A stretch of DNA of 33,938 nucleotides from Bacteroidaceae bacterium (GTDB lineage Bacteria; Bacteroidota; Bacteroidia; Bacteroidales; Bacteroidaceae): assembly GCA_024398405.1 (NCBI GenBank), contig JAKSJE010000016.1, positions 1 to 33,938 on the forward strand, written 5' to 3'. Shown in pieces: positions 17,540 to 19,199 of this stretch. Each line of letters starts with the position of its first letter. The stretch's first letter is position 1. A model generated the notes under the pieces. It ran no database searches. It was given only the letters and a program-made list of their open reading frames with translations, and had not been told where the DNA came from. Both the position numbers and the translations under genes were made by a program.

Positions 17540-18463
17540 TTACACTCTTTCCGCTATCCTCAGTTTAGCGCTCCTCGAACGCGGGTTGCGGGCGGTCTCC
17601 TCGTCGTCAGGGACGATGACCTTCTTGTTGACGGGCTCGAACGGCGACGACACCCTGCCGTAGAAGTCCTTCTCGGCTCTGCCCTCCACGTTGCCCGTCT
17701 TCATCATGTTCTTCACCATCCTGTCCTCGAGTGAGTGGTAGGTTATCACCGAGAGCCTTCCTCCCGGTCTGAGGAGCCTCACCGACGCGCGGAGCATCTC
17801 GCTGAGTGCGTCCATCTCGTGGTTCACCTCTATCCGTAGGGCTTGGAATATCCTGGCCAGCGTCTGCTTGTCATCGGTCCTGAGGATGCCGACGAAGTCG
17901 TCGGTACGCTCTATCCTGTGGTCGCGCCGCGCGGCGACGATTCTCGACGCCAACTGGCGGCTGTTCTTCAGCTCCCCGTACATGTAGAGCACGTCGGCCA
18001 GCCTCGTCTCGTCGTAGTCGTTGACCACGTCGGTGGCCGAGACACCGGAGCGCTGGTTCATGCGCATGTCGAGCCTGCCGTCGAACCGGAACGAGAAACC
18101 GCGGCTTTCGTCGTCGAAGTGGTGCGAACTGACACCGAGGTCGGCGAGGATGCCGTCAACATGCTCAACGCCGTAGTACCGCATGAAATTCCTCATGTGA
18201 CGGAAATTGCCTCTGACAAATGTAAAATAGTCATCGGCGAGTGCGTTCTTCTCGGCGTCGGCGTCCTGGTCGAAACCGTACAGATGCCCTGCCGGCACTT
18301 CAGCGGAATCACCCTCAGAAATACTTCTGAGACGGAAAAGTATCTCGCGGCTGTGACCACCGCCTCCGTATGTCGCGTCAACATACACCCCGCCGGCATT
18401 GATGTTCAGTCCATCAACGCTCTCTCTCAACAGAACCGGTATGTGATACGATACATTGTTCAT
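17540..18463 (-). CDS. rsmH: 16S rRNA (cytosine1402-N4)-methyltransferase RsmH
   Basis: A 307-residue methyltransferase (formerly MraW) that methylates C1402 of 16S rRNA. It begins MNNVSYHIPVLLRESVDGL, matching the family start, with the SAM-binding motif VDATYGGGGHS (28-38). Further family motifs are LADLGVSSHHFDDESRGFSF and LSVITYHSLEDRMVK. The open frame continues to 18541, but that part is promoter leader; the ATG at 18463 is preceded by GGGAGAG, a possible ribosome-binding site. It is the first gene of the dcw cluster here; the mraZ gene that usually precedes it is absent. Confidence 0.97.
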   Translation of the reverse strand: MNNVSYHIPVLLRESVDGLNINAGGVYVDATYGGGGHSREILFRLRSISEGDSAEVPAGHLYGFDQDADAEKNALADDYFTFVRGNFRHMRNFMRYYGVEHVDGILADLGVSSHHFDDESRGFSFRFDGRLDMRMNQRSGVSATDVVNDYDETRLADVLYMYGELKNSRQLASRIVAARRDHRIERTDDFVGILRTDDKQTLARIFQALRIEVNHEMDALSEMLRASVRLLRPGGRLSVITYHSLEDRMVKNMMKTGNVEGRAEKDFYGRVSSPFEPVNKKVIVPDDEETARNPRSRSAKLRIAERV

Positions 18464-18538
18464 CAATCTCTCCCGTTTGTGGTAATTGTCTGAAAACCAA
18501 TCTCGTGACTTTAAATAACAAGCCGCCTGATTCTTTTG

Positions 18539-18573
18539 CAAATTTAGTAAAAAAAAGGATAACAGCCAACAAA
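18539..18573 (-). promoter_or_regulatory. Promoter of the dcw cluster
   Basis: On the minus strand a TTTG (18570-18573) and an overlapping TTGG (18566-18569, 19 bases from the -7 box) precede TAAATTTG (18539-18546), matching TAnnTTTG. The predicted leader to rsmH is about 70 bases. A copy of the heptamer TTAGTAA (18544-18550, plus strand) overlaps the -7 box, the same heptamer as in array B upstream. No other strong promoter was noticed at the short gene junctions, so much of the 15-kb cluster may depend on it. Confidence 0.65.
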
Positions 18574-18588
18574 AGGAGGTGTGTTTTT

Positions 18589-18603
18589 ACATTTTTCAAA
18601 TGT
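18589..18603. promoter_or_regulatory. Dyad (possible operator) just upstream of the dcw -33 box
   Basis: The 15-bp sequence ACATTT-TTC-AAATGT is a perfect 6+6 inverted repeat, ending about 15 bp upstream of the -33 region. Such a site could bind a dimeric regulator. In AT-rich promoter DNA a dyad of this size can also arise by chance. Confidence 0.35.
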
Positions 18604-18735
18604 TAAAAAAATATAACATGCGGACAAGCGTTTCTTTTCCATTTGTAAACGGCATTCGAGGCTGCGGAAAACCGTCCGCACGGCTACTTGCCACCATCCC
18701 CGGGCGGGCGGCACTGTCGGCGGACACGGGCGGTC

Positions 18736-18765
18736 GGACTGCCGTATGCGGACGTACGGCAGTCC
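18736..18765. repeat. Perfect 11-bp inverted repeat with 8-base loop
   Basis: GGACTGCCGTA (18736-18746) and TACGGCAGTCC (18755-18765) form a perfect, GC-rich hairpin with loop TGCGGACG. Neither strand has a T-run after it and no gene ends nearby, so it is not an ordinary intrinsic terminator. It lies between array B and the dcw promoter. Confidence 0.85.
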
Positions 18766-18814
18766 ATGCGCAAGCACTCGCCGACCCGCCGGATAGCACA
18801 AGCATGATATGTAT

Positions 18815-18952
18815 GACTACTAACCTTAACCATGAAACATTACTAATCTTTACTTGGTAACATTACTAATCTTTCGCCATGAACATTACTAATCTTTCGC
18901 TGTGAACATTAGTAACCTTTCCATGTCAACATTACTAACCTCTCGTATCAGT
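18815..18952 (-). repeat. 23-bp tandem repeat array with TTA(G/C)TAA core (array B)
   Basis: Six units of exactly 23 bases begin at 18815, 18838, 18861, 18884, 18907 and 18930. The plus-strand core is CATTACTAATCTTT in the best units, and the rest of the unit varies. Heptamers lie at 18840, 18863, 18886, 18909 and 18932. The unit at 18907 has the C-to-G change at the centre of the palindrome (TTAGTAA), and the first unit is degenerate (CTACTAA). Read toward rsmH the core is TTAGTAATG, identical to unit 3 of array A. The array ends 241 bp upstream of the dcw promoter. Function unknown. Confidence 0.9.
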
Positions 18953-19080: not shown

Positions 19081-19089
19081 GTGTCATAT

Positions 19090-19199
19090 GGTTGTCTGGT
19101 TGTGGGTTTGTGGTTGTCGGGCTGGGTGTTGGTGGTTGTCGGGTTGGGTGTTGGTGGTTGTCGGGTTGTGGGTTTGTGGTTGTCGGGTTGTTGGGTGGA
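19090..19199 (-). repeat. 22-bp tandem array, C/A-rich in the priA transcript
   Basis: Five units of exactly 22 bases begin at 19090, 19112, 19134, 19156 and 19178. Each starts GGTTGTC(G/T)GG on the plus strand and differs mainly in the second half. The plus strand is G/T-rich with several GGG runs, so G-quadruplexes are conceivable. The priA transcript reads the other strand, a C/A-rich, G-poor, unstructured stretch of the kind Rho binds, just before the intrinsic terminator. The 22-base pitch is not a multiple of three, so the repeat is unlikely to code for protein. Confidence 0.88.

Follow-up and report, generated by a model that had tools for sequence, protein, structure and literature searches.

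TTASTAA repeat arrays with a 22- to 24-bp pitch are dispersed through the extragenic DNA of several Bacteroidales genomes

The stretch of DNA analysed here – the window – is 33,938 nucleotides long and is the whole of contig C8 of a Bacteroidaceae genome (1,705,894 bases in 75 contigs, 59.7% complete). It contains two arrays of the short palindrome TTASTAA (S being G or C): array A, which lies at the very start of the contig and is therefore truncated, and array B, upstream of mraW at the dcw locus. The features are as follows.

1–79, + strand: array A, four TTAGTAA cores at a pitch of 24 bp (exact cores at 1–7, 25–31, 49–55 and 73–79), unit TTAGTAACAGGTGGTATATGGCTG
80–178, + strand: conserved tail, CAAAAGCATGATTTCATC..., of an A1 composite element, defined by alignment of eight A1 copies
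18817–18938, − strand: array B, unit TTASTAAYCTTTCNNNNGAAACA, pitch 23 bp, one degenerate core and five exact TTASTAA cores at 18840, 18863, 18886, 18909 and 18932 (spacing exactly 23 bp)
19089–19196, no strand assigned: tandem repeat TGGTTGTCGGGTTGTGGGTTGG at a 22-bp pitch, lacking the core, in the same intergenic region as array B

An earlier note, made from the letters of the window, had described array B as six 23-bp units and array A as a series of 24-bp units, and had singled out the odd palindromic core at a fixed pitch as the element that they share. These descriptions are accurate: the sixth core of array B, CTACTAA at 18817–18823, carries one mismatch and is in register with the other five. 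TTASTAA occurs ten times in the window against an expectation of 0.86, a number reached by none of 100 shuffles, and the arrays are thereby confirmed as real. The core-less repeat at 19089–19196, which is G/T-rich and lies between array B and the 3′ end of a priA-like gene, is an example of a wider class of 22-bp repeats discussed below. No mraZ-like frame was seen upstream of mraW (window positions 18463–18840), all frames between mraW and the array being shorter than 94 aa; at the same place in a sister genome there is a MraZ gene (PF02381) together with a GTGGAG-type 10-bp repeat (L330).

Neither array is an isolated curiosity. The genome contains 195 core pairs, defined as two TTASTAA with 14–19 bases between them, compared to none for the same pattern read backwards (AATSATT), a control that is likewise an odd palindrome and has identical composition. 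Reading the stretches around the listed genome matches yielded 48 arrays of two to nine cores each, 232 cores in total. The centre base was left free in this reading and proved to be G or C in 231 of the 232 cores; that G and C centres are mixed inside single arrays favours a symmetric reading of the duplex. Of 150 contig ends, 24 are no more than 60 bp from an array, so the true number of arrays is probably higher.

The arrays fall into two types. Forty of the 48 are A-type, with unit lengths of 24 and 23 bp (approximately TGTTASTAACARGTGGTATATANNTG), while the remaining eight – array B and seven others – are B-type, with a 23-bp unit, unrelated flanks and no shared leader or tail. A-type arrays comprise two subfamilies that differ in leader and tail, and both flanks carry 22-bp tandem repeats of their own. 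A leader or a tail is recognisable in 38 of the 40 (both in 14, one in 24, neither in L084 and L113), many of the arrays with one flank being cut by a contig end. The A1 tail at 80–178 has matches at 13 other places in the genome, with 75–91% identity over the matched stretch. The 22-bp repeats of A-type leaders (e.g. L092 3895–3961) include TTATCAACG or TTATCCAC, both of which may resemble DnaA boxes.

The arrays are extragenic. With genes called by a simple codon-usage caller made for this analysis, none of 141 distinct arrays from this genome and its relatives overlapped a called gene by more than 15 bp. Once the 36 arrays lacking a called neighbour on one side are set aside, the genes that flank the remaining 105 are co-directional in 57 cases, divergent in 24 and convergent in 24; orientation with respect to genes is neutral.

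Extension of the search to 399 Bacteroidaceae genomes revealed core triples in 29: 381 triples, counting overlapping triples separately, of which 140 come from the present genome. The reversed pattern gave 16 triples in 8 of the 399. Occurrence among relatives is nonetheless patchy. Nine of the 29 positive genomes hold just one triple, and the 16 same-genus genomes searched contain no exact triple. At the dcw locus itself, given by 15 of these 16 sister genomes, no TTASTAA array was present in any of the 15, ruling out a fixed core at this locus across the genus; other 22-bp tandem repeats occur there in two (L332, L334). One of them, upstream of mraW in a sister species (L334 3228–3381), is a palindromic array of 22-bp repeats, AAAGGTGTACACCTTTTTTCAG, built on another core.

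Beyond the genus, a scan of named genomes returned at least 110 matching stretches, and among the 80 listed were Bacteroides rodentium, B. gallinarum, B. heparinolyticus, B. propionicigenes, Phocaeicola vulgatus ATCC 8482, P. sartorii, Parabacteroides and Porphyromonas canoris, along with scattered matches far outside Bacteroidales. Whole-genome counts, made in 38 genomes chosen because a match was already there, gave 8–39 triples in each of nine Bacteroides, Phocaeicola, Parabacteroides and Porphyromonas genomes, one triple in each of two Prevotella-type genomes, and 1–8 in each of the other 27; in the 15 of these 27 for which individual matches were listed, they fall at one or two places. 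Among 12 genomes of the genus Porphyromonas, none of them recognised as P. gingivalis, P. canoris has 47 core pairs, three genomes have one or two, and eight have none. In a genome of another family (G040) the reversed pattern, AATSATT, forms 31 equally spaced triples of the same kind, which indicates that large families with another core exist; these are possibly a sister class. TTASTAA was preset in the genome search patterns and the constancy of the core across genomes is partly built in; independent support comes from the reversed-pattern control, the free centre base and the orthologue comparison described below.

The invariant part of the unit is the 7-bp odd palindrome TTA(G:C)TAA. Around it the arms depend on the species (for example AAGATTASTAATCTT, ACGATTASTAATCGT, GGCATTASTAATGCC, CGTTASTAACG and TTTTASTAAAA) and are palindromic in most groups; in B-type units the two core-adjacent positions lack complementarity. 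Pitch, too, is species-specific, at 22, 23 or 24 bp. When spacings from 11 to 41 bp were scanned, exactly 23 bp separated 20 of 25 core pairs in P. vulgatus (G308) and 21 of 27 in a near relative (G266), while 13 of 19 pairs in a Bacteroides genome (G351) were 22 bp apart. Over any spacing the reversed pattern gave 27, 28 and 7 pairs in these three genomes, so that the signal there is the sharp spacing and not the count of pairs. Spacers occur in both orientations inside arrays. In several groups the spacer bases at +5 and −5 form complementary pairs more rarely than expected, most of the combinations being C..T or A..G, which suggests that spacers are directional.

Evidence that the core itself is under constraint comes from orthologous arrays. 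All eight P. vulgatus arrays have a partner in G266, arrays having been found separately in both genomes and terminal one-mismatch cores having been counted. Across the eight pairs 1 of 203 core positions differs, compared to 36 of 341 in spacers and 377 of 3370 in flanks (Fisher p = 5.3e-7 for core versus spacer, 2.7e-9 for core versus flank), although the flank rate is inflated by badly aligned stretches in L233/L240, L236/L243 and L239/L246, and the pairs are not fully independent since some arrays of one genome sit in mutually similar segments. Two pairs, L233/L240 and the inverted-spacer pair L237/L244, contribute 25 of the 36 spacer changes; leaving out both, the most divergent of the eight, gives 0 of 154 core and 11 of 261 spacer changes (p = 0.009). 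One pair (L238/L245) differs by an extra unit. In Bacteroides (G351 and G103) the three well-aligned pairs show 2 of 98 core, 9 of 165 spacer and 84 of 1263 flank changes (core versus spacer, p = 0.22), all five pairs show 9 of 154, 27 of 255 and 322 of 1997, and three of eight G351 arrays lack a partner among the 11 G103 arrays fetched. On these alignments the core footprint is evident in Phocaeicola but remains unproven for Bacteroides.

What kind of entity might these arrays be? Our preferred reading, tentative and given slightly less than an even chance, is that they are a dispersed extragenic repeat of Bacteroidales, akin to BIMEs and BrickBuilt, whose cores form a lattice of symmetric putative protein sites. 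Each unit combines TTA(G:C)TAA and species-specific arms with a spacer that varies, and recurs at intervals of 22, 23 or 24 bp; a pitch of about two helical turns would place typically three to nine symmetric sites on nearly one face of the DNA. A putative dimeric protein that binds double-stranded DNA might hold the core and fill the array cooperatively, while the arms drift or coevolve species by species. In the present genome most A-type arrays are carried in composite repeats made up of a leader with 22-bp repeats, the core array and a tail. The symmetric core, the centre that reads G:C either way, the two-turn phasing and the conservation of the core all suggest cooperative binding by a symmetric protein. 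Several observations sit uneasily with a lattice: the footprint was not significantly reproduced in the Bacteroides pair, the presence of arrays is patchy, B-type arms are not palindromic next to the core, G040 is rich in the reversed pattern, and the family abounds in core-less repeats of about 22 bp. A bolder version – a putative dimeric protein that recognises species-specific arms around a fixed TTA-G:C-TAA centre and coats phased extragenic arrays chromosome-wide, organising the nucleoid or titrating a replicon, with no known counterpart in model bacteria – strikes us as rather unlikely.

The main rival is a neutral minisatellite: a class of repeats of about 22 bp, prone to slippage and duplication, that spreads through the intergenic DNA of Bacteroidaceae and in which TTASTAA persists by descent or through a bias of the generator and is read by no protein. 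We consider this somewhat unlikely, but the wider repeat landscape lends it substance. In unselected stretches of DNA, 45 of 60 sampled being long enough, noncoding arrays with a period of 20–25 bp number 15 in 34.3 kb from the family and genus (with seven more in open reading frames), one in 12.1 kb from other families of the order and two in 40.0 kb from outside the order (family and genus versus outside the order, binomial p = 4e-4; against noncoding repeats of other periods, Fisher p = 0.037). TTASTAA is present in none of the 22 family and genus repeats of this period, coding or not, and the palindromicity of their units is not significant, 25 of 300 shuffles reaching the family mean and 122 of 300 the genus mean; general palindromicity of all 22-bp arrays is not supported by this comparison. 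Dense core-less repeats of about 22 bp in the family mean that the pitch may come from a general repeat generator, and both the extra unit in L238/L245 and the weak footprint in Bacteroides sit comfortably with neutrality. What neutrality accommodates poorly is that the Phocaeicola core is nearly unchanged against differences of about 11% in spacer and flank, and that one core is common to the unrelated A and B units and to many species when reversed-pattern matches are few in the family. The TTASTAA arrays are a palindromic, core-conserved class beside this broader population of 22-bp repeats, to which the 22- and 23-nt repeats mentioned for P. gingivalis (PMC4596501) may also belong.

Alternatively, the arrays could function as RNA, hairpins in read-through transcripts altering mRNA stability or termination; this we regard as improbable. 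At least one strand of each of three folded arrays is more stable than shuffled sequence (z from −3.9 to −5.6), but two of the six strands are ordinary (z = −1.7 and −1.0), and palindromes outfold shuffles whatever their role. At 11 of 12 co-directional sites of this genome it is the sense strand that forms the stronger fold, which hints at an RNA role; relatives lack this bias (25 of 45 sites). Divergent sites, moreover, equal convergent sites in number, and an Rfam scan of the window gave no match above the gathering score. One spacer has been inverted in situ between P. vulgatus and its relative (L237, about 2495–2590; L244, about 2483–2580), and its ends show a paired change from C-G to T-A, which speaks for this reading. 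Beyond the fixed arms, however, Watson–Crick covariation is inconsistent between groups: z exceeds 2 in 6 of 176 cells, with a maximum of 3.2, and many more cells lie below. Covariation in units (H1) or in spacers (H2) was rejected on these grounds, and its inconsistency fits contact with protein better than base pairing.

Still more improbable, in our estimation, is that the arrays are nothing but internal modules of MITE-like elements, moved by host transposases and devoid of any further role. Shared leaders or tails on 38 of 40 A-type arrays are what such modules would show, and BrickBuilt has been described as a MITE (PMC4596501). Some P. vulgatus arrays have longer stretches of homology in common, L235 and L246 for example over 526 bp at 87% identity. 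An element of about 830 bp (L232 2146–2978), whose 74-nt inverted ends are 92% complementary, encloses a TTASTAA array in the same species, and L234 2895–4547 carries a second pair of ends similar to those of this element. Against a purely modular origin stand the unrelated flanks of B-type arrays and the ragged ends of the A elements, in which clear terminal inverted repeats are not evident by eye in eight A1 and five A2 copies. All eight P. vulgatus arrays, furthermore, are partnered in G266, indicating stability in place, and no transposase is tied to the arrays.

The leading idea of the earlier note, a multi-site operator linked to promoters, we judge very improbable. Matches to TAnnTTTG do lie 225 bp past array A (304–311, + strand) and 271 bp from array B (18539–18546, − strand), roughly at the distances that the note had given, but the window contains no more copies of this motif than chance predicts (7 observed, 7.0 expected). 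A fixed distance before promoters is contradicted by the convergent genes that flank 24 of 105 arrays and by the B arrays, seven of eight of which face a gene start at distances ranging from 126 to 473 bp; elsewhere, copies of either array type sit in different gene contexts. These counts of position and orientation rule out a promoter-linked operator as a general explanation, and largely refute an operator at a constant place upstream of a gene start. The note had reasoned that its case would suffer if arrays were equally common inside genes, absent from the rest of the genome and from relatives, or at random distances from promoters: neither of the first two holds, given an overlap with called genes in 0 of 141 arrays, 48 arrays in the genome and triples in 29 of 399 family genomes, whereas the distances are indeed random. 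Its broader proposals, be it several sites bound by a dimeric protein or a repeat that changes fast around a selected core, agree with the Phocaeicola footprint. The observation is real and the interpretation partly supported.

Lastly, a REP/RAYT system of Bacteroidales, suggested by extragenic, palindromic, high-copy repeats in alternating orientation, retains almost no probability and was rejected, because Y1_Tnp (PF01797) does not track the arrays: it is found in 8 of the 29 genomes with arrays and in 12 of 50 without them (p = 0.79), and there is no match to it in G308, G266, G238, G351 or G103.

Returning to the lattice of protein sites, neutral orientation and position point to a role that is chromosome-wide or concerned with maintenance of the element. 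The role would accordingly be a general one – chromosome structure, or the spread and upkeep of repeats – in place of local promoter control, and the arrays look more like landing pads for a putative DNA-binding protein than switches of neighbouring genes. If the footprint holds, several genera of Bacteroidales, including the human gut species P. vulgatus, would carry genome-wide phased DNA sites, making nucleoid organisation or repeat maintenance directly testable in the order. Even if the arrays are neutral they matter in practice, since many assembly breaks fall at or near them (24 of 150 contig ends), and the family seems to be characterised by intergenic repeats with a length of about 22 bp.

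We have not found this class described before, and the comparison of orthologous arrays provides one clear indication that its core is under selection. A full-text literature search yielded no title or abstract on TTASTAA arrays of Bacteroidales, a weak indication given that sequence words are poorly indexed. Several known systems nevertheless offer parallels. The iteron arrays of plasmid origins comprise several sites at a pitch of about 22 bp, or two helical turns. TTASTAA arrays share with iterons this multiplicity of sites about two turns apart, but differ from them in being dispersed by the dozen over the chromosome and in having mostly palindromic units.

BrickBuilt of P. gingivalis consists of 23-nt tandem repeats in 19 dispersed, always intergenic copies, with a leader and a tail, conserved and variable halves of the unit, a copy number that varies between strains and small terminal inverted repeats (PMC4596501). 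To judge from that description, the likeness is one of architecture: the TTASTAA arrays, too, are tandem, dispersed, intergenic and hosted by Bacteroidales, their pitch is 23 bp in B-type and 24 and 23 bp in A-type arrays, and A-type but not B-type arrays possess a leader and a tail. Clear terminal inverted repeats were not evident by eye at A1 and A2 ends, although one P. vulgatus array does lie within 74-nt inverted ends. The arrays span several genera, whereas the same source reports no BLAST match to the 23-nt repeat outside P. gingivalis (PMC4596501). With the REP and BIME repeats of Enterobacteria and Pseudomonas (PMC3733652; see also PMC2817692) they have in common extragenic palindromes, high copy number, mosaics of alternating orientation and species-specific sequence. 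By inspection, a central TTASTAA stands in place of the REP foot tags GTAG or CGTC; and, unlike REP and BIME repeats, the arrays keep to a strict pitch of 22–24 bp and have no link to a RAYT gene. The TTASTAA arrays are a real class of dispersed repeats, the closest known counterparts of which are BrickBuilt and the REP/BIME repeats.
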